Assembly: GCA_001899635.1 (NCBI GenBank) | Contig: MKVQ01000048.1 | Span: 372,001 to 436,000 of the forward strand | From: Myxococcales bacterium 68-20 | GTDB taxonomy: Bacteria > Myxococcota_A > Polyangia > Polyangiales > Polyangiaceae | DNA: 64,000 bases | Reading direction: 5' to 3' | Shown here: positions 2,508 to 63,760 of the stretch, one piece after another | Position numbering within the stretch: the stretch's first letter is position 1 | How the letters are laid out: each line of letters begins with the position of its first letter | Position numbers and translations under genes: made by a program | The notes under the pieces: generated by a model | The model's input: only the letters and a program-made list of their open reading frames with translations | Databases searched by the model: none | What the model was told of the DNA's origin: nothing

Positions 2508-3968
2508 TCATGCCGATGGCGCCGGGCCGCGCCGATCCCGGACGAGACCGATGAGCTCATGGACGTTGGGCCGGGCGAAGACGAACAGCCCGAGCACGTA
2601 GACGACCCCGCCGAGCACGATCTCGAGGGCGAGCTGAACGCCCGCCGGGATGTGCATCGGCGCGAGGAACTGCCGCAAGGCGAGGACGGAGAGGAACATC
2701 GGGGCACACGCGAGGAGCGGGCGCATCACGGAGATGAAGTAGCGTCCGACGGGGAGCGGCGTCACCAGCGCGGCCAGGCCGACGATGCTGACCGTGTAGA
2801 CCGTGAACCCGATCCCGACGCCGACGCATGCCCAAACCGGACCGCCGAGCTTGCCCAGCACGGCGACTCCCGAAAGCAGTGCGATGGCACGGGCGACGCT
2901 CGCGATGAGAACGAGACGCGGCTTTCTCTCGGCTTCCAGGTAAGCGCCCGCGGGCCATGACGCCGGCTGGAAGATCGTCATGCAGCTCAACACGGTGAGG
3001 ATGCCGGCCATCTCCGCCCAGCGCTTGTCGAAGAACGCATGAACGAGCGTCGGCGCGATCGACCCGAGCCCGACTCCGAGCGGCGCCACGACGAGCGACA
3101 TGAGCGCGGCCGCCCGAACCACCGCGCCAGGGCGGTCCTTCGGATCCATCTTCGAGAAGGCGGGCATGAGCACGTCGCCCATACGCTCGGCGACATAGAT
3201 CACGGGCGTCTCCGCCAAGCTGTACGAGAGCGCGTAGCAGCCCATGAGGCTCGGTCCGAACATGCGGAGCATGAGGACGTTGTCCCAGCTCGACGACGCG
3301 CGCTCGCAGAGCGCCACGAAGAGGATGGGCGTACCGTAGGCCAGCATCTTCCGCGCCTCGCGCCAGTCGGCCCCCGCGAACGAGAGCCACTCGGAACGGG
3401 GCACCTTCCGCACGAAGAGGAGGAAGGTCGTGGTCGAGCGCACGAGCCCAGCGATGACGATCGCGTAGCCGCCGTACCGGGACGCCGCCGAGAGCGCGAC
3501 AGCGGTGAACGTCACCTCGCCGATGCTGTTGATGATGGCGACATCGCGGAACCGGAGCTCGCGTACGAGCAGACGCTCCGGCATCGACCGCGCGCGATCG
3601 AGCAGGTGTGCGATCGCCAAGCCGCCGATGTAACGGCCCATCTGGGGCGCCTCGACGAACTCGCCGAGTTGTCCGCGAAGCGAGTACACGACCGCCATCG
3701 CGAGCACACCCAACCCGAAGTGGAGCACTGCTGCCTGCGAGACGACGCTGGGCTTCGACCTGAAGGCGATGAGGTACTGCCCGAACGCGAAGAACGTGAG
3801 GACGTTCGCCGTCTGGATGCAGATGAGCGCGGCCGAGACCTCGCCGTACTCCGCCGGCGCGATGAACCGCGTGAGCACGAGGGTGCCGACGAGAGACACG
3901 ACGCGCGCACCGAGTCCCGTGACGAGGTTCCAGACGACACCGCGTGCAGCAGCCTTCTCGATCGACAT
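2508..3968 (-). CDS. Polysaccharide flippase (Wzx-like)
   Basis: A 486-residue integral membrane protein of the oligosaccharide flippase family, which moves lipid-linked repeat units across the inner membrane. The N-terminus (AARGVVWNLVTGLGARVVSL) and the following TRFIAPAEYGEV are typical of Wzx proteins. Many hydrophobic segments are spread over the whole length, in line with the usual 12-14 helices. It lies downstream of the polymerase/ligase gene (4045-5466) on the same strand with a 76-base gap, so the two are probably co-transcribed. The transported glycan cannot be inferred. Confidence 0.87.
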   Translation of the reverse strand: MSIEKAAARGVVWNLVTGLGARVVSLVGTLVLTRFIAPAEYGEVSAALICIQTANVLTFFAFGQYLIAFRSKPSVVSQAAVLHFGLGVLAMAVVYSLRGQLGEFVEAPQMGRYIGGLAIAHLLDRARSMPERLLVRELRFRDVAIINSIGEVTFTAVALSAASRYGGYAIVIAGLVRSTTTFLLFVRKVPRSEWLSFAGADWREARKMLAYGTPILFVALCERASSSWDNVLMLRMFGPSLMGCYALSYSLAETPVIYVAERMGDVLMPAFSKMDPKDRPGAVVRAAALMSLVVAPLGVGLGSIAPTLVHAFFDKRWAEMAGILTVLSCMTIFQPASWPAGAYLEAERKPRLVLIASVARAIALLSGVAVLGKLGGPVWACVGVGIGFTVYTVSIVGLAALVTPLPVGRYFISVMRPLLACAPMFLSVLALRQFLAPMHIPAGVQLALEIVLGGVVYVLGLFVFARPNVHELIGLVRDRRGPAPSA

Positions 3969-4044
3969 CTTCTGAACCGACTACACCGAAAGGGGACGGG
4001 GCACGATACGCGATAACGAGGCTGCTCGGGTGCGCAGGTTCGCT

Positions 4045-5466
4045 TCACGAAGACCCAGCTTTGAGCCGGGTATACACGTAGAGCAGGCCCAGGATCGTGA
4101 CGTTGCCGCCCACGACGCCGACGACGTCCTTCCACCCGATCTTCACGTGGAACGTGTCGTCCGATTGCTTGACGATCCGGTACAGCGCGCCCGCGAGGCC
4201 GAACCAGACGAAAAGGAGCTGCTTGTACGTGAACGACAGGAAGAAAATGCCCACCGCGATCCCAGCCAGGGACACGAGCATCGCCATGGCGAGGGAGCGA
4301 AGCTCTTGCGTGAGGGACGCGTCTCGCCGGAGCACCGTGAGGGGGATCTTGAACGACGTCCAGAACAGGAGCGACCAGAAGACGAACCCGACGAAGCCGG
4401 TCTCCGTCGCGGCGAGCAGATACGAGTTGTGCGCCGTGAGATGGATCGGCGAGTCGACACGGTCCGCAAACTGATCCACGCCGACGCCGCGGATCGGAAA
4501 CTTGAAGAACATGCTGATCCCCTCGTAGAGGAGCTCGATCCGCTCCGACGCCGACTCGTCCGCCTCGGCCGCCGAACGCCCGCCGAGCAACACGACCGGC
4601 AGCGCGCAGATCACCGCGAGCACGAGCCCCTTCCAGCGGTAGCGTGAGACGAAGTAGATCCCGAAGACCGTGCCGAGAACGAGCTGTCCGCCGCGTGACT
4701 GCGAGAGGATGACCGCGTAGAGCCCGAGCCCGAGCACGGCAAGGGAGATCGTCATGAGCACGGTCTTCGCGCCCTGTCCGATCCTCTCGCTATGTTTGGA
4801 GGGCATTCCGAGCGCGAACAGCAGCGGGAAGATCGCGCCGATGAAGACCGACAGCTCGTTCGGGTCGTCCAGCTGCCCTCGCCAGCGGACCCGACGTCCC
4901 GTCGTGAACGTCTTGAACAGACCGAGGCGCTCGCACCCCCATTCGACGTCGAACCGGATACCGTCGCGGCAATCGCCGGCAAGCCCACACTCACGGCCAT
5001 CCGCGGTGTCCAGGTCGATGACCTGCTGCCCCTCGTCGTTCATCACCTTCTCGAGACACTGCGCGGGCTGATTGCCCTGATGGACCGCGACAGCGGAGAC
5101 GAAGGCCCCGAGCAGGAGAAGGAGCCATATCATCCCTTTCAACCGGTCGAGGGTGCGCGCCCCGTACATGACGGCGAGCATGAAGATCGAAGGGAAAAGC
5201 GCGCGGTTCGTGCCGAGCTCGATCCCTCGCCCGCCGCCAAGGTTCAACGCGGTGATGAAGTAACAGGTCAGGACGAAGAGCCCGACCCACGGCAACTGCG
5301 GCGTGTAGAGCGGCTTCTGGCGACCGAGCGCCATCTCCACGAGAACGCCGAGGACGCAGAGCCCGGTGAAGACGTCGAGCAGCCGGAGAACGCCGAGGAC
5401 CGGCCATATCTCCTGTGGCCGGATGACGAGGACGAAGACCAGAGCGAGGCTCGCGAAGAACGTCAC
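4045..5466 (-). CDS. O-antigen ligase / polysaccharide polymerase family membrane protein
   Basis: A 473-residue polytopic protein of the Wzy/WaaL superfamily. These enzymes polymerise repeat units or ligate glycans in the periplasm from undecaprenyl carriers. The sequence shows many hydrophobic helices, the stretch GQLDDPNELSVFIG, an ILSQSRGGQ segment, and a periplasmic-loop motif near the C-terminus (LTAHNSYLLAATETG) with the conserved His-Asn-x-x-Leu. The start is a GTG at 5466. It heads a two-gene minus-strand unit with the flippase, and shares a divergent region of about 80 bases with the beta-helix lipoprotein gene at 5550. Polymerase and ligase cannot be told apart from sequence; polymerase fits the neighbouring Wzx. 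Confidence 0.82.
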   Translation of the reverse strand: MTFFASLALVFVLVIRPQEIWPVLGVLRLLDVFTGLCVLGVLVEMALGRQKPLYTPQLPWVGLFVLTCYFITALNLGGGRGIELGTNRALFPSIFMLAVMYGARTLDRLKGMIWLLLLLGAFVSAVAVHQGNQPAQCLEKVMNDEGQQVIDLDTADGRECGLAGDCRDGIRFDVEWGCERLGLFKTFTTGRRVRWRGQLDDPNELSVFIGAIFPLLFALGMPSKHSERIGQGAKTVLMTISLAVLGLGLYAVILSQSRGGQLVLGTVFGIYFVSRYRWKGLVLAVICALPVVLLGGRSAAEADESASERIELLYEGISMFFKFPIRGVGVDQFADRVDSPIHLTAHNSYLLAATETGFVGFVFWSLLFWTSFKIPLTVLRRDASLTQELRSLAMAMLVSLAGIAVGIFFLSFTYKQLLFVWFGLAGALYRIVKQSDDTFHVKIGWKDVVGVVGGNVTILGLLYVYTRLKAGSS

Positions 5467-5549
5467 GCGGTCACCTCGAGCCGGTCGCGATCACACGGCG
5501 AGCATACATCATGCAGCGATGGGTGTGCTGGCGGGCGTACGGCGGTACG

Positions 5550-7235
5550 ATGCGCGGGACCGTGACGACCAGGACCTTCGCAGCGCTCGCCGTCCTCGCG
5601 ATCGGGTGTTCGGGCTCGAGCGGCGCCTCGAGCGGCGTCACGAACGCGCCATCCACCGTCCCGACGAGCGCCCCGGAAATGCAGCGACCACCGCCGAGAA
5701 CCGCGAGGCCGGCAGGGTCGTCGCGCCCGGCGGGCGCTCCCCCGACCCAGGCTGGGCTTGCTGGCGGTGCAGCGAGCGGATCTGGTGCGACCTTCCGGAC
5801 GACCACGGAGACACCGCCGGTCGAGTGTGGCCCAAGCACGACCGGAAGGACGTTCGACGTCGGCGATGGCAAGCCTTACACGACGCTCGGGGCGGTGCCC
5901 TGGGCGAACCTCTCGGGCGGTGACGTCGTGCGGCTGCACTGGCGACCTCAGCCTTGGCGCGAAAAGATCCTCATCTCGCAGTCGGGCAGCGCGACGAAGC
6001 CCATCCGCTTCTGCGGCGTGTCCGGCCCGAAGGGCGAGCGTCCCGTGCTGGACGGTGAGAACGCGACGACGGACAAGTCGTTCGACTTCATCCACGTGGA
6101 GGGCGAGCGCCGCGGCCTCATCACGATCTCGATCCGTCGCGACGGTCAGAGCTGGGGGGACAAGCCTCGGCACATCGTCATCGACGGCCTCGAGCTGCGT
6201 AACGCGGCCGTACCCCACGGCTTCACCAACAGCCGCGGCGAGAAGAAGACGTACCTCGACCACACCGCCTGCATCTTCGTCGAGCGTGGCGAGCACATCG
6301 TGATGGCGCGCAACGACGTCCACGGCTGCGGAAACGGGCTCTTCGTCGCCTCGAATGACAGCGAGGAGGTCGTCTCACGCGACATTCTGATCTACGGCAA
6401 CTACATCCACGGCAACGGCTCGCTCTCGCATCCGGACCGGATGCACGGCATCTACAGCGAGGCGATCGGCATCGTGGTCCAGAACAACCGTTTCGGTCCG
6501 AACCGTGAGGGATCGCTCGGCAACCAGCTCAAGGATCGCTCGACGGGGACCATCGTCCGGTACAATTGGTTCGAGGGCGGCTCGCGTGCGATCGATCTCG
6601 TCGAGCCCGAGGACAGCTTCGCCGTCGTGCGGCAGATGCCGGAGCGCCACGAGACGTGGGTCTATGGCAACGTCATCATCCTCGGCGCGCGCGCGTCGGC
6701 TCGCCCCATCCACTACGGCGGCGACAACGGCTCCGAAAACATGTACCGGAAGGGCACGCTCTTCTTCTACGACAACACGATGGTCATCACGACCAACGAG
6801 AAGGACCTGTATTACATGGCGGTCCTCCAGCTCGAGACCGACGACGAGTCCGCCGACGTGCGGAACAACGTCATCTACCGCTCGGGGACGACGCACCTCT
6901 CGTGGCTGCTCGAGAAGGGGACGGCACGCCTCGGTGTGAACTGGATCTCGAACGGCGTGACGACCGCGGTCGACCGCGGGCCGACCGTGAAGGTCAGCGC
7001 CAAGACCGAGATGCTGCCCGAAGGCAAGACGCTCAACGGTGACAACCCGAGGTTCGTCAACGCGGCCGCGGGTGACTACTGTCTCGGACCGAGCTCTCCC
7101 GCGCGGAACGCCGCCGGCGAGCTCGCTCCCCTTCTTCCTCCGGGCCTCCTGCCGACGCTCCAGTACAAGAAGCACCAGCACACCGTCCCGCGGCGGGCCG
7201 AGCGAATGGACCTCGGCGCGTTCGCGTGCGAGTGA
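5550..7235 (+). CDS. Right-handed beta-helix lipoprotein (putative polysaccharide lyase/epimerase-like)
   Basis: A 561-residue exported protein. The N-terminus is a lipoprotein signal (LAVLAIGC, lipidated Cys20), followed by a Ser/Ala/Pro/Gly-rich linker and a domain of about 450 residues with parallel beta-helix features: repeated Asn-Asn and Gly-Asn turns such as DILIYGNYIHGNG, IVVQNNRFG and TIVRYNWFEGG. Such folds occur in pectate and alginate lyases, C5-epimerases and other surface-polysaccharide enzymes. It is clearly paralogous to the lipoprotein at 39405-41045 (shared VPW..L..GD.VR.H.RP.P..EK start and HYGGD turn). I chose ATG 5550 because the signal peptide starts there. No catalytic residues could be assigned; periplasmic or outer-membrane trimming or modification of the exported polymer is an inference. 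Confidence 0.78.
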   Translation: MRGTVTTRTFAALAVLAIGCSGSSGASSGVTNAPSTVPTSAPEMQRPPPRTARPAGSSRPAGAPPTQAGLAGGAASGSGATFRTTTETPPVECGPSTTGRTFDVGDGKPYTTLGAVPWANLSGGDVVRLHWRPQPWREKILISQSGSATKPIRFCGVSGPKGERPVLDGENATTDKSFDFIHVEGERRGLITISIRRDGQSWGDKPRHIVIDGLELRNAAVPHGFTNSRGEKKTYLDHTACIFVERGEHIVMARNDVHGCGNGLFVASNDSEEVVSRDILIYGNYIHGNGSLSHPDRMHGIYSEAIGIVVQNNRFGPNREGSLGNQLKDRSTGTIVRYNWFEGGSRAIDLVEPEDSFAVVRQMPERHETWVYGNVIILGARASARPIHYGGDNGSENMYRKGTLFFYDNTMVITTNEKDLYYMAVLQLETDDESADVRNNVIYRSGTTHLSWLLEKGTARLGVNWISNGVTTAVDRGPTVKVSAKTEMLPEGKTLNGDNPRFVNAAAGDYCLGPSSPARNAAGELAPLLPPGLLPTLQYKKHQHTVPRRAERMDLGAFACE

Positions 7236-7298: not shown

Positions 7299-8474
7299 AT
7301 GATCAGGCGAGCCTTTCGCGCTCTTCGCGAACGACACCTCGAGACGTTTCTCTCGGGCTACCTGATCGACGCCGGCCAGCGCGCGTTCGCGCGCCGGACG
7401 GGTCCGAAGGTCGAAGGAGTCCGTCACCTGCTCGTCGCCGTGTGCGATCACTACGAGCCGCTCTGGAACAAGGCCGACCCGGCTCACGGCGCGCGCCGGG
7501 TCCAGGCCTGGCGCGAGGGCTACCCGCGGCTCGCGAGCCAGTACCGCGACGCCGATGGCCGACACCCGCGCCACTCGTTCTTCTTCCCCGGGGAAGAGTA
7601 CCGCCCGGAGTTCCTCGAGCCGCTGGCAGAGCTCGCGCGTGACGGCTTCGGCGAGGTCGAGATTCACCTCCACCACGACGGCGACACCGCCGAGACGCTC
7701 GAGGCGCAGCTCCGCGACACGATCGCGAAGTTCATGAGTCATGGGCACCTCTCGCGCGCTGCCGACGGGTCCGCGCGCTACGCGTTCATCCACGGCAACT
7801 GGGCGCTCGCCAACCCGCGCCGTGACGGCAAGTGGTGCGGCGTCGACGAAGAGGTCCCGCTCCTCTTCAAGACCGGCTGTTATGCCGACTTCACGTTCCC
7901 TGCCGCGCCCGATCCGGCGCAGCCGAACATCGTGAACCGGATCTACTGGCCGACGGGCGACCTCTCCGCGAAACGCTGCTACGAGTCAGGCGAGCGCGCC
8001 CGGGTCGGCAAGGTCATGAGGGACCGGCTCCTGCTGGTGCAAGGACCACTCGCCTTCTCGCGCCGGTCCAAGAGGCTCGCTGTGTGGATCGAGAACTCGG
8101 CGCTCACGGCGGTCAACCCGGCAACGGCAGCGCGCGCAAAGACGTGGGTGACGCGGAACATCCACGTCGAAGGCCGGCCCGAGTGGGTCTTCGTGAAGCT
8201 CCACACGCACGGCGCACCCGACGCCCAGGCGGCGTCGCTGCTCGGTGACGGAGGCCATGCGCTCCACCGCGTCCTCACGACCGATTACAACGACGGCCAG
8301 AGGTGGATGCTCCACTACGTGACCGCGCGCGAAATGTTCAACATCGCGATCGCGGCCATGGAGGGCAAGACTGGCAATCCGAACCTTTATCGCGACCATG
8401 TCATCGCGCCGCCGCCGGCCGCCAAGGTCGAGCCCGTCGCGAACGAAAACCGAGCGGAGTCCCACGCGTCATGA
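7299..8474 (+). CDS. Conserved protein of polysaccharide loci, deacetylase-like features
   Basis: A 391-residue soluble-looking protein whose family I cannot name firmly. It has no signal peptide or membrane helix. Possible metal-site motifs are LVAVCDHYEPLW near the start, EIHLHHDGDT in the middle and FIHGNWAL further on, followed by LFKTGCYADFTFPA; the order and spacing resemble a NodB/glycosidase-type (beta/alpha) deacetylase barrel, but the classical TFDDG motif is absent. It overlaps the Gfo/Idh/MocA gene by ATGA and so is translationally coupled to it. The context suggests a role in sugar-precursor or oligosaccharide modification. Confidence 0.6.
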   Translation: MIRRAFRALRERHLETFLSGYLIDAGQRAFARRTGPKVEGVRHLLVAVCDHYEPLWNKADPAHGARRVQAWREGYPRLASQYRDADGRHPRHSFFFPGEEYRPEFLEPLAELARDGFGEVEIHLHHDGDTAETLEAQLRDTIAKFMSHGHLSRAADGSARYAFIHGNWALANPRRDGKWCGVDEEVPLLFKTGCYADFTFPAAPDPAQPNIVNRIYWPTGDLSAKRCYESGERARVGKVMRDRLLLVQGPLAFSRRSKRLAVWIENSALTAVNPATAARAKTWVTRNIHVEGRPEWVFVKLHTHGAPDAQAASLLGDGGHALHRVLTTDYNDGQRWMLHYVTAREMFNIAIAAMEGKTGNPNLYRDHVIAPPPAAKVEPVANENRAESHAS

Positions 8475-9571
8475 CCCTGCGGGTAGCGATCGTCGGCTGT
8501 GGCAAGATCGCCGATGGCCACGTCGAAGAGATCCAGAAGATGCCGGAGGTCGCGCGCGTCGTCGGCGCCGTCGATCTCGAGCCGATCATGGCCGAGCAGC
8601 TCGCCGTCCGTTACGGCATCGAGCACCACGGCGCCGACTTCTCGCGGATGCTCCGCGAGCAGCGCCCTGACGTCGTGCACATCACGACGCCGCCGGCCTC
8701 GCACCTGCCGCTAGCGCTCGAGGCGATCGACGCGGGCTGTCACGTCTTCGTCGAGAAGCCCTTCACGCTCCGGCACGAAGACTCGAAGAAGCTCGTCGCG
8801 CGCGCCGAGGAGGCGAAGAAGAAGCTCTCGATCGGCTACACGTACCTCTTCGACCCGCCGGCGCTGGAGATGCGGAGCCTCCTCCGGCAAGGCGTCCTCG
8901 GCGACGTCGTCCATGTGGAGAGCTGGTTCGGCTACAACCTCGAAGGCGCGTTCGGGAAGGCCGTCCTCGGAGATCCGAACCACTGGGTGCTGAAGCTGCC
9001 CGGGCAGCTGTTCCACAACAACATCGATCACCTGCTCAACAAGGTCGTCGAGTTCTTCGCGGAGGACGAAGATCTTCCGGCGATCTCCGCGTTCGGCTCC
9101 GTCCGCCGCCGCGCGCGGCTCGGCGATCACCGCGACCGGATGATGGATGAGCTCCGGCTCGTCATCCGCGGCAAGCGCACGACGTTCTACGGCACCTTCT
9201 CGTCCCACACCCGTCCGCCCGCGCACCAGCTCCGCGTCTACGGGACGAAGAACACCGCCACCGTCGACTTCACGATGCGCACCGTCACGCTCGAGACGCA
9301 GTCGACGCTCCCGAGCGCCATCGGCCGCCTCGTTCCGGCCTTCTCGCACGCGATGCAGTACGTGCGCGCGGGCGGCAAGAACGTCGGCCGCTTCGCCCGC
9401 TCCGACTTCCACTTCTTCTCCGGGCTCCACTACCTCTTCCGGGAGTACTACCGGAGCATCGTGGAAGACACTCCACCACCGATCTCGCATCGCGACATCC
9501 TTCGGGTCTCGGCGATGCTCGACGAGATCTTCGCGCAGCTCGACGTCCAGCGAGAGGAGCTCGGGTCGTGA
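8471..9571 (+). CDS. Gfo/Idh/MocA family NAD(P)-dependent oxidoreductase
   Basis: A 366-residue oxidoreductase. The N-terminal Rossmann fold begins VAIVGCGKIADGHVEEI (GxGxxA fingerprint), and the typical HITTPPASHLPLALEAIDAG plus the family's Glu-Lys-Pro motif (HVFVEKPFTL) follow. The C-terminal half matches the usual alpha/beta substrate domain. Such enzymes oxidise or reduce nucleotide sugars, often to 3-keto intermediates. ATG 8471 overlaps the previous stop (ATGA), and the stop overlaps the next start (GTGA), so three genes are translationally coupled. A role in making a modified sugar for the polysaccharide is likely; the exact reaction is unknown. Confidence 0.88.
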   Translation: MTLRVAIVGCGKIADGHVEEIQKMPEVARVVGAVDLEPIMAEQLAVRYGIEHHGADFSRMLREQRPDVVHITTPPASHLPLALEAIDAGCHVFVEKPFTLRHEDSKKLVARAEEAKKKLSIGYTYLFDPPALEMRSLLRQGVLGDVVHVESWFGYNLEGAFGKAVLGDPNHWVLKLPGQLFHNNIDHLLNKVVEFFAEDEDLPAISAFGSVRRRARLGDHRDRMMDELRLVIRGKRTTFYGTFSSHTRPPAHQLRVYGTKNTATVDFTMRTVTLETQSTLPSAIGRLVPAFSHAMQYVRAGGKNVGRFARSDFHFFSGLHYLFREYYRSIVEDTPPPISHRDILRVSAMLDEIFAQLDVQREELGS

Positions 9572-10593
9572 CCAAGACGCTCGTAACAGGAGCAACCGGA
9601 TTCCTCGGGACGTCGCTCGTGCAGCGCCTCGTCGCGCGAGGGCGCACGGACCTTCGTTGCCTCGTCCGCCAGGGCAGCGACGTCTCGCATCTCGAGGGCG
9701 TCATCGAGAAGCATCCCGACGTCGAGCGCTTCGTCGGCTCGCTCGCCTCGGTCGATGCCGCCGCGGCCGCCGTCGAGGGCGTAGACACCATCTTCCACGT
9801 CGCCGCCGCGATGGGCGGCGCGCCGGCAGACATCTTCCTCAACACCGTCGTCACGACGAAGAACCTCTGCGAGGCGATCGCCCGGACCGCCCCGTCGCGA
9901 GGAAACAAGCCGCCGCTCTTCGTCCTCGTGAGCTCGTTCGGCGTCTACGGCGTCGCGGATCTGCCGCGCGGGACCGTCGTCGACGAGGGCACCCCGCTCG
10001 AGAACAAGCCTGCGCGACGCGACCCCTACTCGCAGGGCAAGCTCAGGCAAGAGAAGCTCTGCTGGGAGTACCACGACAAGGGCATCATCCGGCTCGCCGT
10101 CGCTCGCCCCGGCGTCATCTACGGTCCACGCGGCGGCGCGTTCTCCGCGCGTGTCGGTCTGAACCTCTTCGGTGTGTTCCTGCATCTCGGCGGGCGCAAC
10201 ACGCTACCGCTCACGTACGTCGACAACTGCGCCGAGGCGATCGCGCTCCTCGGCGACAGGCCGGAGGCGGCGGGCCAGGTGTACAACGTCGTCGACGACG
10301 ATCTGGTCGACGCCGACGACTACCTGCGCCGGTACAAGCAGCGCGTGACGCCGCTGCGCTCGGTCTCTCTCCCCTACCCCGTCACGATGCTCATGTCGCA
10401 CGCGGTCGAGCGCTATCACCGCGCGTCGAAGGGGCAGCTGCCCGCCGTCTTCACGCCGTACAAGACGAAGACGACGTGGAAGGGGAACCGCTTCAGCAAC
10501 GAGAAGCTGAAGGCGATCGGCTGGCGTCCGATCGTAACCACCGAGCAAGGGCTCGAGCGGACGTTCGAGCACCTGAAGGCGCGAGCGAGCTGA
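9568..10593 (+). CDS. NAD-dependent epimerase/dehydratase (extended SDR)
   Basis: A 341-residue extended short-chain dehydrogenase/reductase. The NAD-binding motif is GATGFLG near residue 8, and the catalytic Tyr-x-x-x-Lys appears as DPYSQGK. SSFGVYG supplies the active-site serine region and RPGVIYGPRG is the usual segment after the active site. It starts at GTG 9568, overlapping the stop of the dehydrogenase gene. Members act as nucleotide-sugar epimerases, dehydratases or reductases; coupling to a Gfo/Idh/MocA enzyme and a hexapeptide acetyltransferase suggests a short pathway to one unusual sugar. Confidence 0.86.
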   Translation: MTKTLVTGATGFLGTSLVQRLVARGRTDLRCLVRQGSDVSHLEGVIEKHPDVERFVGSLASVDAAAAAVEGVDTIFHVAAAMGGAPADIFLNTVVTTKNLCEAIARTAPSRGNKPPLFVLVSSFGVYGVADLPRGTVVDEGTPLENKPARRDPYSQGKLRQEKLCWEYHDKGIIRLAVARPGVIYGPRGGAFSARVGLNLFGVFLHLGGRNTLPLTYVDNCAEAIALLGDRPEAAGQVYNVVDDDLVDADDYLRRYKQRVTPLRSVSLPYPVTMLMSHAVERYHRASKGQLPAVFTPYKTKTTWKGNRFSNEKLKAIGWRPIVTTEQGLERTFEHLKARAS

Positions 10594-11185: not shown

Positions 11186-11186
11186 G

Positions 11187-11201
11187 GGCCCGTCGGGGGC
11201 C
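11187..11201. terminator. Small hairpin between convergent stops
   Basis: GGCCC and GGGCC arms flank a five-base loop exactly between the stop of the acetyltransferase (11185) and the stop of the methyltransferase (11201). No T-run follows on either strand. It could act as a weak two-way terminator. Confidence 0.3.
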
Positions 11202-14732: not shown

Positions 14733-14750
14733 AACGGAAATCCGAGCCCT

Positions 14751-29708: not shown

Positions 29709-29769
29709 CACTCTCTCCTCACTCGGACGTCGACGCGCGTCGACGGCATATCGTCGGGCAATCTTTGGG

Positions 29770-39212: not shown

Positions 39213-39216
39213 ATGA

Positions 39217-41045: not shown

Positions 41046-41215
41046 GGCTAGGCGAGCGTAGCGTCGGGTTGGTGGCACGACCACCGGCAAGACCTGCGTG
41101 CCATTTTGCATCGCCCATGTCGGCTATCGCCGACGTCGAACAACGACCTGGTCACATCCATGAAGTCACCCCCCTGCCCTGGACGACGTGAGACATCCTC
41201 GGTAGGAGAAGCATC

Positions 41216-51950: not shown

Positions 51951-52003
51951 CGGTCGTATCTCTTCTTGCTCTTCGAGTGACGTCGGTCTGGCGCTCGGCC
52001 GGC

Positions 52004-56668: not shown

Positions 56669-56793
56669 GTTTCGCCTGCCGTGGGATGGGAAAGGGACCC
56701 GCAGGGTAACGACCTCTCAGCCGGCCGGAAAGGGCTGCGATCTCACCAAATGGGTGACAACTTGGGGCTCGCGCCCCCCCTGCAGTGGTGTCG

Positions 56794-57486
56794 TCAGCGC
56801 TCCGCCACGGGCGGGATCTGGACGCTCGTCACGAGGATCTGCTCGGCCGAGAGCTCGCTGAACTTGCCGGAGACCACCGTCCCCGCGAGGAAGCCGCCCA
56901 CGTCGCGAAGGAACACGCCTCGAAAGGCCCCTCGAAGCGAGGGACTGCGCTCGAGCTTCGTGATCTCGATTCGGGCATCGGCGAAGTCCATGAACTCGTT
57001 GGTGCGCGGATATTGCGCCTTGTAGAGCGACTCCTTCGCCGAAAAGACGATCATTGCGAGCTGCTGCCGTTGGTCGAACGGCGCGGCCTCGACGAACGCG
57101 CGCTCCTCGTCGACCAGGATCCTGGGCCACAGGTCCTCGGAGAGGCGGAGCCGGTCCTCGACGTCGATGCCGAACGTGCCAGTCTCGTCGAGCCGGCCCA
57201 CGGCGGCGAAGGCCTTCTTGGTGCAGTGAGAGATGCTCCCGGTGAATCCCTCCGGCCAGATCGGCGCTCGCATCTCATCCTGGAGGATCGCGACGTCGTT
57301 CACTCCGAGCTGCGCGAGCGCAGCGCGCGCCAGCTTCCGTCCCGTTGCGAACTCGTGCCGACGCTTGTCGACCGCACGTGCGACGAGCAAGGCTTCGTTC
57401 GGGTGAAGCGAGGCTGACGCCGTGAAGTCGATCGGGCTCGTTCGGACGACCACCGGCCCCTCGAATAGCCCATCGAGCTCGTGCAT
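56794..57486 (-). CDS. 4'-phosphopantetheinyl transferase (Sfp/EntD superfamily)
   Basis: A 230-residue enzyme that attaches phosphopantetheine from CoA to carrier-domain serines. Signatures: WPEGFTGSISHC, the magnesium site GIDVE (Asp108, Glu110), and FSAKESLYKAQYP with Glu152. The FSAKES form and the ISHC stretch match the EntD group. ATG 57486 is preceded closely by GGAGGAG; an upstream GTG at 57501 has no site. It sits 125 bases before the formyltransferase NRPS and is the only such enzyme seen in the window, so it probably activates both assembly lines and the free ACP at 14751. Confidence 0.92.
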   Translation of the reverse strand: MHELDGLFEGPVVVRTSPIDFTASASLHPNEALLVARAVDKRRHEFATGRKLARAALAQLGVNDVAILQDEMRAPIWPEGFTGSISHCTKKAFAAVGRLDETGTFGIDVEDRLRLSEDLWPRILVDEERAFVEAAPFDQRQQLAMIVFSAKESLYKAQYPRTNEFMDFADARIEITKLERSPSLRGAFRGVFLRDVGGFLAGTVVSGKFSELSAEQILVTSVQIPPVAER

Positions 57487-57571
57487 CGCTCCTCCGGTCA
57501 CACCAAGAATCGCCGACGCGAGTGGCAGGTCACCGAGCTCGCCTGCCGGACATGCTCCCGCACGAGGTCGC

Positions 57572-58537
57572 TCAGGACGGCTCGCGCTGCAACCAGTCGA
57601 CGACGCTCGCCAGGCCGTCGTCCAGCTTCACGCGCGGTGACCACCCGAGCTCCTCGCGGGCCCGGGTGATGTCTGCGAACGTCGCGTCGACGTCACCGAG
57701 CGGAACGGGAGCGCGTTCGATCGTCACCGGGCGATTCGCCGCGCGGCTCATCGCATCCACGAGCTCAGCGAGCGTCACCGGCGCGCCCGACCCGAGGTTG
57801 TAGGGCCGCGCGCCCTTCGGCGCCTGGTCGATCGCGGCGACGAGACCACGGACGATGTCCTCGATGTGCGTGAAATCGCGACGCATCGAGCCGTCGCCGA
57901 ACATCGTGATCGGACGCCCGGCCAGGATCTTCCGGAGAAAGCTCGTGATCGCCATCTCCGGGCGCTGCCACGGTCCGTAGACGGTGAAGAAGCGGAGCAT
58001 CGGCGCGCGCATCTCCGGCGTCTTCCGGAGCATCGAGCTGACGACGAGCTCCGCGCTCCGTTTGCTCGCCGCGTACGGAGATTCGGGCACGATCGCCGGT
58101 GCATCCTCGGTCGCCGGGAGAGGCGTCGCGTTGCCGTACACGGACGAGCTCGACGCGAAGAGGAACAGCGAGCAGCCCGCGTTCTGCGCCGCCTGGAGCT
58201 GAACGGCCGTGCCCTCGACGTTGACGTCCTGGTAGCGCGCCGGATCGACGAACGAGGGACGCACGCCCGCGAGTCCGGCGAGATGAAGGACGCCGGTCAC
58301 CCCGGCCGAGAGCCGTGCCGCGAGCTCACGGTTCGTGACGCACCCCTCCTCGACGCTGAAGCGGTCACCGTGCTCCTTCTGCAGGACCTCGGCGTGGCGT
58401 CGCTTCAGTCGCTCCGGGTACGGCTCGTTCGAGAAGTCGTCGAGCACGCGGACGGTGTCCCCGCGCTGGAGCAGCGCCCGCGAGAGGTGATGACCGATGA
58501 AGCCGACGCCTCCCGTCAGGAACCACGTGCTCGACAT
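57572..58537 (-). CDS. NAD-dependent nucleotide-sugar epimerase (UDP-glucuronate/UDP-glucose 4-epimerase-like)
   Basis: A 321-residue extended SDR. Motifs: TGGVGFIGHH at the start, LHLAGLAGVRPSFVDP, SSSSVYGN, and catalytic Tyr-x-x-x-Lys in SPYAASKRSAE. RFFTVYGPWQRPEMA is typical of UDP-glucuronate epimerases. It starts nine bases before the preceding Ugd gene ends on the same strand, so the two form a pair: Ugd would make UDP-glucuronate and this enzyme would convert it to UDP-galacturonate. The acid sugar would serve the polysaccharide. Confidence 0.88.
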   Translation of the reverse strand: MSSTWFLTGGVGFIGHHLSRALLQRGDTVRVLDDFSNEPYPERLKRRHAEVLQKEHGDRFSVEEGCVTNRELAARLSAGVTGVLHLAGLAGVRPSFVDPARYQDVNVEGTAVQLQAAQNAGCSLFLFASSSSVYGNATPLPATEDAPAIVPESPYAASKRSAELVVSSMLRKTPEMRAPMLRFFTVYGPWQRPEMAITSFLRKILAGRPITMFGDGSMRRDFTHIEDIVRGLVAAIDQAPKGARPYNLGSGAPVTLAELVDAMSRAANRPVTIERAPVPLGDVDATFADITRAREELGWSPRVKLDDGLASVVDWLQREPS

Positions 58538-58546
58538 CGGCCGGCG

Positions 58547-59896
58547 CTACCTCTGGGACGGGCGATCGAGCGCCCGGCCCGACGCGTGCGCGACGCCGAT
58601 GCCCTGGTAGCGGAGCCCCGCCTTGAGGACGTCGGCGGGCTTCCAGATGTTGCGTGCATCGACGAGCAGCGGATTGGCCGAGCCGCTCGACACCAAGCGC
58701 TTCTTGATCTCGCCGAAGTTCGGCGCGCGATAGCTACGCCACTCGGTGAGGAGGATGACCGCGTGCGCGCCGTCGAGCGCCTCGTAGTCGCGATCGACGA
58801 CCCTCACCTTGGAGCCGAACAGCTTCCTGAAGTTCGGCCCGGCCTCGGGATCGTGGCCGGAGACGTTCGCGCCCTTGTCGAGCAGGACACGGGCGAGCTT
58901 CACGGCCGGAGATTCGCGGATGTCGTCCGTCTCCGGCTTGAATGCGAGCCCCCAGAGCGCGATCGTCTTCCCCTCGACACCGTCGAGCGCCTTGTCGACG
59001 AGTTGCGCGAGGAAGTGAGCCTGCTCCTCGTTCGCGAGGTGCGCAGCCTCGGCAACGCGCATCGGCACGGTGTGCTCGCGACCGAGCGCGACGAGCGCCT
59101 GGACGTCCTTCGGAAAGCACGATCCGCCGTAGCCGGGGCCCGCGTAGAGAAACTTCTTGCCGATGCGCGAGTCGGTGCCGACGCCCATGCGGACCGAGTG
59201 GATGTCGGCGCCGGTGGCGTGGCAGAGCCGCGAGAGCTCATTCATGAACGAGATCCGGATCGCGAGCATGGTGTTCGACGCGTATTTGATGAGCTCGCTC
59301 GAGCGCGGATCGGTGACGACGAGGCGCTCGCCGGAGAGCTGGAGCGGCGCGTAGAGATCGCGCATCGCCTGCCGGGCCTCTTCGCTCCGCGCGCCGACGA
59401 CGACACGGTCGGGCTTGAAGAAGTCGTTTACTGCGTCGCCTTCCTTCAGGAACTCGGGGTTCGACACGACCTCGAGCGTGACGTTCGCGGTCGTGAGCCG
59501 CGCCTGCACCGCGTCGCACGTGCCGACGGGGACGGTGCTCTTCACGACGACGAGCGCGTCCCGCGTGGCCGTCTTCGCGATCGTGTCGGCCGCCGACATG
59601 ACGTACGAGAGATCCGCGGCGCCGTCGGAGCCGGGCGGAGTCCCGACCGCGATGAAATAGGCATCGGCCGAGTCGAACGGCGCCGGGATCGACGTGCCGA
59701 AATGCAGGCGGCCGTTGCGCTGATTTCGATGGACCAGGTCGGCGAGCCCCGGCTCGTAGATCGGAACATGCCCCTCGTTCAGCTGCGCGACCTTTGCCGG
59801 ATCGATGTCGTACACGAGCACGTCGTGACCGAGATCGGACATTCCGGTTCCACTCACGAGGCCAACGTAACCCGCGCCGAAGACGACGATTCGCAT
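58547..59896 (-). CDS. ugd: UDP-glucose 6-dehydrogenase
   Basis: A 449-residue enzyme that oxidises UDP-glucose to UDP-glucuronate with two NAD+. The N-terminal fold starts MRIVVFGAGYVGLVSG, and the catalytic Cys260 lies in GPGYGGSCFPKD exactly at the family position. EVVSNPEFLKEGDAVNDF and WGLAFKPETDDIRESP are further signatures. ATG 59896 is the natural start although the frame is open to 60022. It is flanked by a glycosyltransferase and an epimerase on the same strand. It supplies a uronic acid donor, so the polysaccharide is probably acidic. Confidence 0.95.
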   Translation of the reverse strand: MRIVVFGAGYVGLVSGTGMSDLGHDVLVYDIDPAKVAQLNEGHVPIYEPGLADLVHRNQRNGRLHFGTSIPAPFDSADAYFIAVGTPPGSDGAADLSYVMSAADTIAKTATRDALVVVKSTVPVGTCDAVQARLTTANVTLEVVSNPEFLKEGDAVNDFFKPDRVVVGARSEEARQAMRDLYAPLQLSGERLVVTDPRSSELIKYASNTMLAIRISFMNELSRLCHATGADIHSVRMGVGTDSRIGKKFLYAGPGYGGSCFPKDVQALVALGREHTVPMRVAEAAHLANEEQAHFLAQLVDKALDGVEGKTIALWGLAFKPETDDIRESPAVKLARVLLDKGANVSGHDPEAGPNFRKLFGSKVRVVDRDYEALDGAHAVILLTEWRSYRAPNFGEIKKRLVSSGSANPLLVDARNIWKPADVLKAGLRYQGIGVAHASGRALDRPSQR

Positions 59897-60022
59897 TGAG
59901 GGGCAAAAACTATCCCCTAGGGCCACCAGCCGGCAAGCGTGCCGTCCAGCCGTGTCGGCGGGCTTCGCTCCACCGGGCTCCACGGGGGAATCAGGAAGGT
60001 ACGCCGGGCCGCACGGCGCCAC

Positions 60023-61213
60023 TCACCCGTTCGTGCGACCGGCGGGGCGCGACGTGCCGGACAGGAGATCGACGATCTGCTGCGTCGACTCTTTCCACGT
60101 CATGAGCCCGGGCAGCGCGACGCGCTTGGCGTCCTGGTCCGGAACGCCTCTCTCGCCCCGCGCCGCGAGCGACCGCTCGATCGCAGCCGCGAGCGCGCCG
60201 ACGTTCTCGGGAGGCACGAGCGCGCAATCCGTCCCCTCGGCGATCTCGGCGACGCCTCCGACCTGCGTCGCGACGAACGGCGTCCCGCAGGCAAGCGACT
60301 CGCGGAGCACGTTCGGGACCCCCTCGGAGCGGCTGGCAAGGATGGTCAGATCGGCGGCGCGGTACCAATCGGGCAGCCCTCGCTGATCGACCTTGCCGGC
60401 GAAGTGAACGACGCGGTCCTTCAAGCCGAGCCGTTCGGCCTGCGCCTCGAGCGCCGCCCTGCTCTTGCCGTCGCCGACGAGGTAAAGCGAGACGTCGCGC
60501 GTCTTCGCGACCACCGCCACCGCGTCGATGAGCACGTCGATGCCCTTCACCGGCAGAAGGCTCCCCACGGCGACGAGCATCCTGCCGCGCGGAGTGATAC
60601 CGAGCCTCTTCCGCGCCTCGACGGCCGAGCCCGGCGCGAAGAGGTCCTTGTCGACGCCCTGGTAGACGACATGGACCTTGTGCGAGGGGACGCCGAGCGC
60701 CCTTACGGCCCGCGCAAGGTCGCGACCGACCGTGATGACGGCGCTGTTCGCGTGGAGCGCGTCGATGACCGCCCGCTGCCGGCGCCCCGGCTCACGCGCG
60801 AGGACGAGCACGTCGGAGCCGCCGACGATCACCCCGGAGGGGATCCCCGCCGCGCGCGCGAAACGTGCGGCCACCGCACCGTCCGGATGCGCCCAGTAGC
60901 TGAGGACGGCCTCGGGGCGGAACTGGTCGAGCACGCGCGTCAGCGCAGCGCGGCTCGAGAGCGCCATGAACCGGTCGTACCGGCTCTGGAGCACCCGCGG
61001 CGGATAGGCGTACGTCGGGTATTCCGTCGGGATGCCGTCGAGGCCGTAGGCGGGCCGCGGATCGCGCCCACGCGGCTCCAGCCACCCCTTCGGCGACACG
61101 ACGCGCGCCTCGTGACCGAGATCCACGAGCGCCCGACACACGTGCTGGCAGTAGATGCCGAGCGTCACGTTCCACGAGCGCGGGAAGATGCTGCTGAAGA
61201 AGAGGACTCGCAT
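60023..61213 (-). CDS. Family 4 glycosyltransferase
   Basis: A 396-residue GT-B enzyme. The N-terminus MRVLFFSSIFPRSWNVTLGIY, the hinge VHVVYQGVDKDLFAP, the donor-binding domain (MLVAVGSLLPVKGIDVLIDA, LYLVGDGKSR) and the Glu-x7-Glu motif (ASRSEGVPNVLRESLACG) are all in place. It lies between another GT4 gene (33-base gap) and the Ugd gene (126-base gap) on the same strand. It probably adds one sugar of the lipid-linked repeat on the cytosolic face of the membrane; the linkage is unknown. Confidence 0.9.
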   Translation of the reverse strand: MRVLFFSSIFPRSWNVTLGIYCQHVCRALVDLGHEARVVSPKGWLEPRGRDPRPAYGLDGIPTEYPTYAYPPRVLQSRYDRFMALSSRAALTRVLDQFRPEAVLSYWAHPDGAVAARFARAAGIPSGVIVGGSDVLVLAREPGRRQRAVIDALHANSAVITVGRDLARAVRALGVPSHKVHVVYQGVDKDLFAPGSAVEARKRLGITPRGRMLVAVGSLLPVKGIDVLIDAVAVVAKTRDVSLYLVGDGKSRAALEAQAERLGLKDRVVHFAGKVDQRGLPDWYRAADLTILASRSEGVPNVLRESLACGTPFVATQVGGVAEIAEGTDCALVPPENVGALAAAIERSLAARGERGVPDQDAKRVALPGLMTWKESTQQIVDLLSGTSRPAGRTNG

Positions 61214-61246
61214 GGCCTTGTCGTTCGGTCGCTCTCGTCGTCTCGC

Positions 61247-62407
61247 TCAGGTGCGCTGCCGGCACGAGAGGTAGAGGTCGTAGTAGCTGCTCGCCATCTT
61301 CTCGGCGGAGTACGTTCGCAGCGCGTGCTCGCGCCCTCGCTGCGCCATCTCCTGCAGCGCACGCAGGTCTGGCTCGAACGCACGTAGCGCCGCAGAGGAG
61401 AGCGCCGCCTCGTCGCCGTTCGGGACGAGGAGCCCCGTACGCTCGTGCTCGATCGCGGCGGGGATCCCGCCGACGGCCGTCGAGATGACAGGCAGGCCGG
61501 CGGCCCACGCCTCGATGAGGCCGATCGGGAGGCCCTCGGTGCTCGAGGACAAGATCCAGGCGTCCGCTGCGGCCAGCAGCGCTGGGACGTCACTGCGCCC
61601 GCCGGTCATGTGGACGTACTGCCGCGTCGGCAGGGCGTCGACGAGCGCTCGGACGTCGCCCCGCATGGGGCCGTCGCCGACGATCACGAGCCGGCGGTCG
61701 TCGCGGAGGAGCGGGCCGACGGCTCGCAGCAGGAGCGCGTGGTTCTTCTCCTTCACGAGCCTGCCGACCTTCACGAGGACACGTGCGCTCGCCGGGATGT
61801 CCAGCTCGCGCCTGATCCTCGAGCGGGCGCCGTCTTCGGCCGGGAAGCGAGAGAGGTCCGTCCCGTTGACGATGACCCGTAGCTTGTCGGGCGTGCACTC
61901 GGACGCCCGACGCGCGACCTCGGCGGTGGCCTCCGAAACGGCGACGAAGACGTCCGCCGCCGTGGCCGCTGCTCGCCGTAGCAGGTGGGCGCGCGACGAC
62001 ACCGCGACGGTGCCGTGCTTGCTGTGGACGACGGCGGCGCGCGCGAGCTTCCCCCCGGGCGCCCCGTAAATGAGAGGCAGCTCGTTGTGCGTGTGAACGA
62101 CGTCTGCACCGTACCTCCGGAACCACCGTGCCAAGCGGAGGGGCAACGAGAGATCGGTGCCGCGCCACTTCGGGACGGCCTCGAGGGTATCGACGACCCC
62201 CTGGAACTCGGCGGCCATCGCCCCGCGCACGTTGCTGAGCGTCACCACGGAGACGCGGTGACCATCCGCACGCTGCGCCCGTGCGAGATCGAGCACCACC
62301 CGCTCTGCACCCCCGACCTCGACGGACCAGAGGACGTGGCAGATCGAGAGGGGCAAGCGCCCGCTAGCCGTGCGCGAGGACACCTTGTCGACCGAGGTAG
62401 CGTTCAA
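61247..62407 (-). CDS. Family 4 glycosyltransferase
   Basis: A 386-residue GT-B enzyme. Signatures: ICHVLWSVEVGGAERVVLDL (glycine-rich acceptor loop), NGTDLSRFP, VLVKVGRLVKEKNHALLLRA, LVIVGDGPM and the Glu-x7-Glu region SSTEGLPIGLIEAWAAG. I place the start at TTG 62407 because GAGAGGAG ends eight bases before it; the frame opens at TTG 62431, and a GTG at 62383 is a further option. It heads the seven-gene minus-strand run that ends with the PKS-NRPS gene. Confidence 0.88.
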   Translation of the reverse strand: MNATSVDKVSSRTASGRLPLSICHVLWSVEVGGAERVVLDLARAQRADGHRVSVVTLSNVRGAMAAEFQGVVDTLEAVPKWRGTDLSLPLRLARWFRRYGADVVHTHNELPLIYGAPGGKLARAAVVHSKHGTVAVSSRAHLLRRAAATAADVFVAVSEATAEVARRASECTPDKLRVIVNGTDLSRFPAEDGARSRIRRELDIPASARVLVKVGRLVKEKNHALLLRAVGPLLRDDRRLVIVGDGPMRGDVRALVDALPTRQYVHMTGGRSDVPALLAAADAWILSSSTEGLPIGLIEAWAAGLPVISTAVGGIPAAIEHERTGLLVPNGDEAALSSAALRAFEPDLRALQEMAQRGREHALRTYSAEKMASSYYDLYLSCRQRT

Positions 62408-62740
62408 GCTGCGGACTCCTCTCGTTTCCAAGCCAACAGGTGGTCATGTAGTCGACGGAGGGGATAGCCAATACGCCCATTCGACGCACTCGCAAGCCTC
62501 CCGGCTCTCGTCTAGAGTCCGTCCTGGGCCTCGGCCCGACATGATCGACAACCTCGTCCGTGTCGTCGTTCCTTCGAGCAACGGTTCGTACTGGATCGCG
62601 AGGACGGACGATAGCGTGCTCGGACAGCCGCGTCGCAGCATGAAGGCGACCATGGTCGACGAAGGCTCGACCTACAACACACACGATCGGGAACCTGCTC
62701 ACATCCGCTCGCGGAGCATCATCGTCGAAGGGGGAGCAAC
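62408..62740. other. Divergent intergenic region, no clear gene
   Basis: This gap separates the minus-strand glycosyltransferase and the plus-strand deacetylase and must hold both promoters. It looks less GC-rich than the coding parts. A plus-strand frame is open from 62370 to 62744 (with an ATG at 62541), but it overlaps the deacetylase start by four bases and resembles nothing I recognise; a small regulator cannot be excluded. No clear palindrome or consensus promoter was found. Confidence 0.5.
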
Positions 62741-63760
62741 GTGAGGACGGCGGCAATCGCTAGACGGGTCGCGGGGACCATCGCTGTGAGGACGCCCGCC
62801 GCCGCGAGGCGCCTGGCCGGTGCCGTCGTGCGCTGGAAAGGAATCCTCGGCCTCAACTATCATCGGATCGGTGATGGTCGGCGAACCATCTTCGATCGCG
62901 GCCTCTACAGCGCCACGGCAGAGGACTTTGACGCGCACGTCCGCTGGCTCAAGGCAAACTTCGACGTCATCGCCCCACGCGACGTCGACACGGCAGTCCG
63001 TGCGAAGCGTGGCCGTCACGTCATCGTCACCTTCGACGACGGCTACGCCGACAACCACGAGCACGCGTTCCCGATCCTGAAGTCGCACGGCGTCACCGGC
63101 ACGTTCTTCATCGCGACCGGGTTCATCGACGACCCCCGCCTCCCCTGGTGGGACGAGATCGCCTGGATGGTTCGCACGAGCAAGCGGTCGGGCGTGGAAA
63201 TGCCGGGGTTCCTCGACGCCCGCGTTTCGTTCGACGAGCCCGACCGCGAGCGGGCGGTTCGCGCGCTGCTCCATGCTTACAAGAAGCTGCCCGACTCCAT
63301 CACGACGAAGTTCCTCGACGCTGCCGGAGGAGCGACCGGCACCGGAAGGCCTCCGATGGACGTCGTCGATCGCCAAACCGTCTGGATGACCTGGGACATG
63401 ATCCGCGAGATGCACGCGGGAGGGATGACCATCGGCGGACACACGGCTCGACATCCCGTGCTCTCACGGCTCTCCCGCGAGGAGCAGGCGAAGGAGATCG
63501 CGATGTGCGAGCGCCGGCTGAAGGAGGAGCTCGGCATTCCGATGACGACCTTCTCGTATCCGGTCGGCACCCTGGACGCGTTCAACTCCGAGTCGCGCGC
63601 ATGCTTGCGCGAACGTGGTGTGCACACCGCCTTCTCGTACTACGGCGGCATGCGCAGCCTCCGCGACTGGGACCACTACGACATCCGCCGGATCGCGATC
63701 GAGCAGGACACCAGCTTCGACGAGTTCCGCGCGATGGTCATGTTTCCTTGGACGACCTAG
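62741..63760 (+). CDS. Polysaccharide deacetylase (NodB domain)
   Basis: A 339-residue carbohydrate esterase-4-type enzyme that removes N- or O-acetyl groups with a metal ion. The metal/catalytic motif is TFDDGYADN (Asp99, Asp100), the histidine pair is in GGHTARHP (His234, His238), and FSYPVGTLDAFN gives the later loop. GLNYHRIGD near the start is common in capsule-locus deacetylases. The start is GTG 62741 after a GGGGGAG site. No cleavable signal peptide is evident; the N-terminus is basic and alanine-rich. It is divergent from the GT4 run and probably modifies a lipid-linked or exported glycan. Confidence 0.9.
   Translation: MRTAAIARRVAGTIAVRTPAAARRLAGAVVRWKGILGLNYHRIGDGRRTIFDRGLYSATAEDFDAHVRWLKANFDVIAPRDVDTAVRAKRGRHVIVTFDDGYADNHEHAFPILKSHGVTGTFFIATGFIDDPRLPWWDEIAWMVRTSKRSGVEMPGFLDARVSFDEPDRERAVRALLHAYKKLPDSITTKFLDAAGGATGTGRPPMDVVDRQTVWMTWDMIREMHAGGMTIGGHTARHPVLSRLSREEQAKEIAMCERRLKEELGIPMTTFSYPVGTLDAFNSESRACLRERGVHTAFSYYGGMRSLRDWDHYDIRRIAIEQDTSFDEFRAMVMFPWTT

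Follow-up and report, generated by a model that had tools for sequence, protein, structure and literature searches.

The object of this analysis is a window of 64,000 nucleotides, i.e., the whole stretch analysed, from the 11.9 Mb genome of Myxococcales bacterium 68-20 (G000:C48:372001-436000; about 67% GC), in which a complete Wzx/Wzy-type polysaccharide locus encloses two operons for nonribosomal peptide synthetases (NRPS) and polyketide synthases (PKS). NRPS and PKS assembly lines are usually taken as makers of free small molecules. For the two lines of this window we favour, with a probability of about one half, a different role: their products would decorate the polysaccharide, the operons being acyl- or peptidyl-decorating cargo modules of polysaccharide loci.

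A polysaccharide locus enclosing two assembly-line operons

Genes were called from open reading frames, codon-position GC and a codon-usage score, and domains were assigned with Pfam and NCBIfam. In the following, famox designates the family of the protein encoded at 52004-56668, nrpsA the gene at 16996-23787 and nrpsB that at 23784-26924; G and L numbers denote genomes and loci, respectively. The glycan genes comprise Wzx, Wzy_C, a priming transferase, a short outer-membrane polysaccharide export (OPX) protein, a Wzz-like polysaccharide co-polymerase (PCP), four glycosyltransferases (GT), Ugd and two epimerases, accompanied by a Gfo/Idh oxidoreductase, a hexapeptide transferase, a TylF methyltransferase, a polysaccharide deacetylase and a beta-barrel-like protein. 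Of the components of a Wzx/Wzy-dependent locus, the flippase (PF13440), polymerase (PF04932), priming transferase (PF02397) and OPX (PF02563) are present. The glycan genes lying outside the two operons are the following:

2508-3968 (-): Wzx-type MOP flippase (PF13440, 9.4e-36; NF007773)
4045-5466 (-): Wzy_C O-antigen ligase/polymerase family (PF04932, 1.4e-16)
7299-8474 (+): conserved protein without Pfam match, 62-71% identity in the glycan loci of relatives
8471-9571 (+): Gfo/Idh/MocA oxidoreductase (PF01408, 1.1e-25; 66-67% in G096)
9568-10593 (+): NAD-dependent epimerase/dehydratase (PF01370, 2.7e-24; 62% in the G096 glycan locus)
10658-11185 (+): hexapeptide acetyltransferase, EpsC/CysE-like (PF00132; NF041874, 1.8e-34, under cut-off)
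11201-12016 (-): TylF-family methyltransferase (PF05711, 2.6e-62)
28683-29711 (-): GT2 glycosyltransferase (PF00535, 5.3e-29; 63-65% in G073, G015 and G303)
29770-31245 (-; alternatively 29770-31410): Wzz/PCP-like co-polymerase, about 490 aa, bitopic, without BY-kinase domain (59% in G096)
33003-33647 (+): short OPX (Wza family), 214 aa, without membrane-spanning part (PF02563, 4e-22; 72% in G096/G142)
33821-34540 (+): priming sugar-phosphate transferase, Bac_transf (PF02397, 2.6e-51)
34564-36054 (-): outer-membrane beta-barrel-like protein (AlphaFold2 model mostly strands; 31-38% in G096/G142/G144)
36134-37885 (-): beta-helix protein with MYXO-CTERM sorting signal (TIGR03901, 24.7 bits, cut-off 20)
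38001-39212 (+): GT4 glycosyltransferase (PF13692, 1.8e-9; 42-43% in G096/G142)
62741-63760 (+): polysaccharide deacetylase family protein (PF01522, 1.4e-24)

A preliminary description of the window had placed two assembly-line operons, on opposite strands, inside one Wzx/Wzy locus, and this arrangement is borne out by Pfam/NCBIfam and codon-position GC, as are, by Pfam/NCBIfam, the flippase, the polymerase, the priming transferase, Wza, the four glycosyltransferases and Ugd that it had listed. Two of its names need adjustment. Its Wza belongs to the OPX family in the short form of 214 aa, devoid of the membrane-spanning part. Its Wzc is Wzz/PCP-like and aligns to a Wzc-like protein of G303 (L149:7312-9570), but it has no Pfam match and lacks the tyrosine kinase (BY-kinase) domain of a PCP with kinase; since some Wzx/Wzy systems carry the kinase as a separate protein, this does not bar the locus from that group. 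The gene adjoining that of the PCP (31367-32830) codes for a 487-aa protein without Pfam or NCBIfam match, resembling by eye the alkaline phosphatase superfamily.

The beta-barrel-like protein is a likely partner of the short OPX, on a structural model that is weak overall (pLDDT 70-85 in the C-terminal half) and for which Foldseek returned generic porins, including AlgE, and no partner-specific match. Two related secreted beta-helix proteins, falling into one sequence cluster (5511-7235 and 39405-41111), flank the locus on opposite strands and are possibly polysaccharide lyases or epimerases. Many predicted transmembrane (TM) segments are found in the window only in Wzx, Wzy and the MBOAT protein described below, so that no dedicated small-molecule exporter is seen in it. 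Neither Rfam nor a tRNA scan gave any match in the window, and promoter and terminator scans gave nothing exceeding shuffles.

Operon 1 (12169-28623, plus strand) is more tightly packed than the preliminary description had indicated; it starts upstream of the NRPS genes and finishes with two hydrolases. Domains are abbreviated as A (adenylation), T (thiolation), C (condensation), KS (ketosynthase), AT (acyltransferase), AMT (aminotransferase), KR (ketoreductase), DH (dehydratase) and TE (thioesterase). The genes of operon 1 are, in order:

12169-13284 (+): SGNH/GDSL-like protein with one N-terminal TM segment (PF13472, 2.6e-5, under cut-off)
13281-14732 (+): MBOAT acyltransferase, DltB/AlgI type (PF03062, 7.2e-14)
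14751-15023 (+): discrete carrier protein (ACP; PF00550, 0.0014)
15083-16996 (+): acetoacetyl-CoA-synthetase-family ligase (TIGR01217, 611.8 bits, cut-off 520.9)
16996-23787 (+): nrpsA, NRPS/PKS A-T-KS-AT-T-AMT (Pfam; relatives of the AMT region 71-77%)
23784-26924 (+): nrpsB, NRPS C-A-T (Pfam)
26921-27763 (+): alpha/beta hydrolase, exosortase-A-associated hydrolase-2-like (TIGR03101, 1.7e-24, under cut-off)
27760-28623 (+): alpha/beta hydrolase, exosortase-A-associated hydrolase-1-like (TIGR03100, 2.3e-16, under cut-off)

Five junctions (SGNH/MBOAT, ligase/nrpsA, nrpsA/nrpsB, nrpsB/hydrolase 2 and hydrolase 2/hydrolase 1) show gene overlaps of 1-4 bp, which makes a single transcript likely. 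In the SGNH-like protein the GSSH and DxDH motifs are invariant in three relatives; its AlphaFold2 model (pLDDT 49.5) was too poor for a structure search. In the MBOAT protein His286 and His327 are invariant, and the closest solved chain is DltB (6bug, 1.6e-30); for the carrier it is DltC, with weak similarity (6bug_A, 2.7e-5). The A-domain codes read by hand, DLLWAGGTFK for nrpsA and DIYQLGCIWK for nrpsB, are both uncertain. Relatives of the hydrolase-2-like protein pair with famox or nrpsA in L035, L073, L076, G293 and G299. No thioesterase was recognised by Pfam in either assembly line.

Operon 2 lies on the minus strand and, with the two genes next to its distal end, is composed as follows:

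61247-62431 (-): GT4 glycosyltransferase (PF13692, 6.2e-34)
60023-61213 (-): GT4 glycosyltransferase (PF13692, 8.1e-35)
58547-60022 (-): UDP-glucose 6-dehydrogenase, Ugd (TIGR03026, 1.1e-128, over cut-off)
57572-58537 (-): NDP-sugar epimerase/dehydratase (PF01370, 8.9e-54)
56794-57501 (-): Sfp-type phosphopantetheinyl transferase, PPTase (PF17837, PF01648)
52004-56668 (-): famox; formyltransferase, C-like stretch, A domain with inserted luciferase-like monooxygenase, T (Pfam)
43167-51950 (-): PKS-NRPS KS-AT-KR-DH-T-C-A-T, without thioesterase (Pfam)
42193-43074 (+): short-chain dehydrogenase/reductase (SDR) oxidoreductase (PF00106, 3e-32; 59% beside the line in G070)
41216-42145 (+): secreted protein accompanying the operon-2 line (47-53% beside the line in G070 and G084)

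The seven co-directional genes reported in the preliminary description are all found, the run extending from 62431 to 43167; its gaps, given there as 9 to 126 bases, amount to about 0-137 bp, varying with the choice of start codon. The single PPTase assigned to this run is likewise present and adjoins the NRPS genes; its family was found in 30 of the compared loci, the window counted. The famox protein has AMP-binding at residues 567-781 and Bac_luciferase at 806-1124, after which the A domain resumes, its C-like stretch having been recognised by eye. Over 72 full-length famox rows the formyltransferase residues are conserved (N89 in 71/72, H91 in 72/72, D127 in 70/72), residues H870, R874, E877, G897, W898 and D902 of the monooxygenase are invariant, and an A code of the DILQxGMIWK type is maintained. 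The codes read by hand in the window, DILQMGMIWK (famox) and DILQLGMIWK (PKS-NRPS), are ones that we take to be glycine-like. Among solved chains, famox is closest to LgrA, and its monooxygenase to PuwE (6ket). An althiomycin-type starter was considered and rejected, the searched text of the althiomycin paper containing no formyl or monooxygenase terms.

Recurrence of the lines beside glycan genes

The genome scan for famox disclosed 80 loci, most of them full length, in Chloroflexota, Myxococcota, Burkholderiales, Rhizobiales, Rhodobacterales, Gammaproteobacteria, Planctomycetota, Gemmatimonadota and others. Of these, 57/80 contain one or more members of the glycan-gene clusters and 44/80 at least two; because the clusters had themselves been chosen from these loci, the counts are descriptive and do not test an association. 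The commonest neighbours of the famox/PKS block are PPTase (28), GT2 (28), Wzx (14) and Wzy (6), and the order Wzx-PKS-GT2-famox-PPTase-Wzz is shared by L058, L068, L083 and L092. One alphaproteobacterial PKS next to famox was scanned and reads KS-AT-KR-DH-ACP-TE; similar lengths suggest that the other alphaproteobacterial neighbours share this organization.

Co-location was assessed with two curated families, Bac_transf and Poly_export, within 25 kb of famox, the other C-domain NRPS loci of the same genomes serving as control; the 45 genomes were picked for usable flanks, not for glycan content, after a first neighbour list had been seen. Either family lies within this distance of famox in 26 of the 45 genomes, against an upper-bound expectation of 2.9, and near none of the 18 non-famox C-domain NRPS loci (Fisher p = 8e-6), 30 of the 45 genomes having no C-domain match at E <= 1e-30; such p-values are indicative, because positions were compared by hand, the genomes are not phylogenetically independent, and fragmentation of the assemblies works against finding linkage. 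Among five independently annotated plasmid loci, four (Ruegeria, Aminobacter, Shinella and Paracoccus) are complete exopolysaccharide (EPS) loci enclosing PKS and famox; the fifth (Aliiroseovarius sp. M344, L159) has famox and a 9.2-kb NRPS/PKS with an exosortase near and no glycosyltransferase close. The idea of a shared transcript in a single locus, put forward in the preliminary description, stands in part: in its favour are the gene order (overlaps in operon 1, short gaps in operon 2) and the related loci just described (26/45 famox genomes, 0/18 other NRPS loci, 4/5 plasmid loci), together with the failure to find a sigma-70-like promoter in 51000-62800, which is weak evidence, as the promoters of myxobacteria differ.

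Some features of individual famox loci are recorded here in their own right. In L159 famox and the NRPS/PKS have nitrous-oxide-reductase genes on one side and an XrtD exosortase on the other; the plasmid is typed as mobilizable. The Rhizobiales glycan loci L040, L042, L047, L063, L082 and L095 have a conserved ligase (TIGR03098-like), a carrier and a pyridoxal-phosphate (PLP) decarboxylase (TIGR03099-like), both matches being under cut-off. G116 harbors two famox copies of equal score (C11:853496-858121 and C16:316007-320632), due either to recent duplication or to the assembly.

Turning to the kin of the window, many members of the family have matches to the priming transferase at 57-80% identity, and five genomes of the same genus (G096, G142, G144, G145 and G073) retain the glycan locus in part or for the most part. 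Some of these loci hold other acyl cassettes, in support of a decorating role: that of G142 has MBOAT, ACP, a TIGR03098-like (exosortase-type) ligase and a TIGR03108-like amidotransferase, and that of G073 the hydrolase pair. In G144 a PhaC-like protein (TIGR01836, 282 bits, under cut-off) lies by a FadD-like acyl-CoA ligase and a 104-aa ORF (L116:9037-13268), possibly another acyl cassette of such loci. In G303, belonging to another family of the same order, a full glycan locus encloses the operon-1 NRPS line, with OPX, Wzz/Wzc, Wzy, Wzx, a priming transferase (62%), glycosyltransferases and a PPTase. In G044, of another genus of the same family, MBOAT, carrier and ligase adjoin nrpsA, a related SGNH being on a separate contig. 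The plasmid search with nrpsA gave partial relatives only. Since the lines and the glycan genes each also occur without the other, they are separable modules found recurrently together rather than an obligate unit; the assembly lines are separable cargo that has been repeatedly recruited to polysaccharide loci.

Proposed pathway and likeness to known systems

The gene content, the geometry of the operons, the order of domains, the conservation of catalytic residues and the recurrent co-location are observed; what the enzymes use, which reactions they perform, how the products are joined to the glycan and where the acyl group comes from are inferred, and give the following scheme. The locus would make one secreted polysaccharide by the Wzx/Wzy route, through the priming transferase, the glycosyltransferases, Wzx, Wzy, the Wzz-like PCP and the short OPX with the beta-barrel, and the short products of the two lines would become substituents on the polymer or on its lipid-linked repeat unit. 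In operon 2, the starter module would load glycine, N-formylate and alpha-oxidise it; extension by one C2 unit, reduced and dehydrated, and addition of a second glycine would follow, the PPTase activating the carriers. In operon 1, A-T-KS-AT-T-AMT and then C-A-T would yield a beta-amino-acyl dipeptide, which the two hydrolases may release or hand on. The SGNH-MBOAT-carrier-ligase set would form a Dlt/alginate-type O-acylation unit, moving an acyl group from the carrier across the inner membrane to the polymer; this group may come from the NRPS line or be a distinct short one supplied by the ligase.

The Dlt system (DltA-DltB-DltC-DltD) shares with operon 1 a DltB-like MBOAT with its conserved histidines, a (weakly) DltC-like carrier, an activating ligase and, tentatively, an SGNH-like protein within a single operon, the probable acceptor being a polymer. 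It differs in that the window's ligase is acetoacetyl-CoA-synthetase-like rather than a DltA-like aminoacyl adenylation enzyme, operon 1 runs on into NRPS/PKS genes, and the host appears to be Gram-negative with a Wzx/Wzy polymer. Exosortase-A (XrtA/PEP-CTERM) EPS clusters have an acyl ligase, a decarboxylase, a carrier and hydrolases 1 and 2; a pair resembling the latter is found in the window, below the curated cut-offs (86.8 vs 202.75 bits and 59.9 vs 168.45 bits), and relatives of the window carry the TIGR03098-like ligase and the TIGR03108-like amidotransferase. In contrast, the window has MYXO-CTERM, not PEP-CTERM, and NRPS/PKS genes in place of the simple cassette; the scan of the window genes disclosed no exosortase, this search not having been extended to other parts of the genome.

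With LgrA, the formylating F-A-T start of linear gramicidin synthetase, famox shares a formyltransferase with conserved N, H and D preceding an A domain, from which it departs by the C-like stretch between F and A, the luciferase-like monooxygenase inside the A domain, the glycine code and the PKS that comes next. This monooxygenase is of the MupA/Atu3671 family, to which PuwE (puwainaphycin) also belongs, with the same PKS/NRPS context, but it sits inside the A domain of a putative formylating glycine starter; for the PuwE monooxygenase a role in 2-hydroxylation has been proposed (PMC4219810). The KS-AT-T-AMT part of nrpsA agrees with iturin/mycosubtilin-type PKS-aminotransferases, although nrpsA starts with A-T and an amino-acid-type A domain instead of a fatty-acyl ligase. 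A short OPX and a beta-barrel-like protein in one locus recall the EpsX/EpsY export of Myxococcus, in whose description, in the portions consulted, NRPS/PKS genes do not appear (PMC9601211). No earlier description of NRPS/PKS inside Wzx/Wzy loci was found among the titles and abstracts of the open-access papers searched, which is not proof of absence.

Alternative explanations and significance

Decoration of the polysaccharide is favoured by the recurrence of the association, the way the operons are built, the presence of a Dlt-like unit and the absence of another exporter in the window; relatives of the operon-2 line adjoin sugar-polymer genes in numerous bacteria that are not related to one another, which points to such lines making chemical groups for attachment to outer sugar coats. 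Several observations weigh against it. In the stretches read, the operon-2 line was not found in the five same-genus genomes, and its closest relatives, in G070 and G084/L035 (contigs of 80 and 38 kb), which form one clade with that of the window, have no glycan genes nearby, so that this subclade can work without a glycan locus, one of the weakest points of the interpretation. On the tree showing this clade the glycan label takes 13 changes, a count inflated by duplicate rows and short flanks. The independent presence of the two gene sets in related strains, which the preliminary description had named among the outcomes that would refute it, is found at the family level (the glycan locus without the operon-2 line in five genomes of the genus, the line without nearby glycan genes in G070 and G084). 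Moreover, in G167, G176 and G224 the nrpsA line has no recognised glycan gene in the 60-80 kb read, the candidate ligase for feeding the carrier belongs to the acetoacetyl-CoA-synthetase family and not to the amino-acid A domains, and no enzyme joining the operon 2 product to a sugar was identified, the products themselves being predictions.

Alternatively, the lines would make a secreted small molecule unrelated to the polymer, having been inserted in a variable, insertion-tolerant polysaccharide locus. In favour of this, the operon-2 line of G070 and G084 is solitary, accompanied by hydrolases of its own and by a protein like that of 41216-42145 (in G070 also by the SDR), several famox loci of Chloroflexota, Nitrosomonas and some Comamonadaceae have no recognised glycan neighbours, and the genus possesses the glycan locus without the line. 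We nevertheless consider a free metabolite clearly the less probable outcome, given the strong recurrent co-location in distant taxa and with differing gene orders, its lack at other NRPS loci of the same genomes (0/18), the overlap of operon 1 with acyltransferase genes and the fact that no other exporter is seen in the window. The products might also be glycosylated small molecules or glycolipopeptides, to which the GT4s, Ugd, the epimerase and, in other loci, the conserved GT2 would add sugars before export by Wzx. Ugd, the epimerase and two GT4s do lie within the operon-2 run, GT2 adjoins a PKS or famox gene in 28 places, and in G293, G284 and G299 Wzx and hydrolases adjoin the nrpsA line, no other glycan gene being matched in the stretches read. 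A small glycoside would have no need of the polymerase, co-polymerase, OPX and priming genes that the window and many relatives possess, and the DltB-like MBOAT suggests that the acceptor lies in the periplasm, which makes this explanation rather unlikely. Simple adjacency of one or two natural-product clusters and a polysaccharide locus is imaginable in a genome as large as 11.9 Mb; with 26 observed against 2.9 expected and two different lines each recurring beside glycan genes, it is highly improbable, and chance does not explain the content of the locus.

Going beyond this window, decoration of the polysaccharide might be one case of a wider rule, which we put forward only tentatively: a widespread NRPS-PKS class would mainly build parts of cell-surface polysaccharides, a conserved formyl-glycine starter and one PKS module giving a small unsaturated acyl unit that would be a regular component of secreted polymers, possibly an in-chain linkage, in many phyla. 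If the famox family does decorate or build secreted polysaccharides, a function would be at hand for "orphan" clusters of Rhizobiales, Rhodobacterales, Comamonadaceae, Myxococcota and others, and the chemistry of EPS would gain substituents that sugar-focused annotation does not predict.

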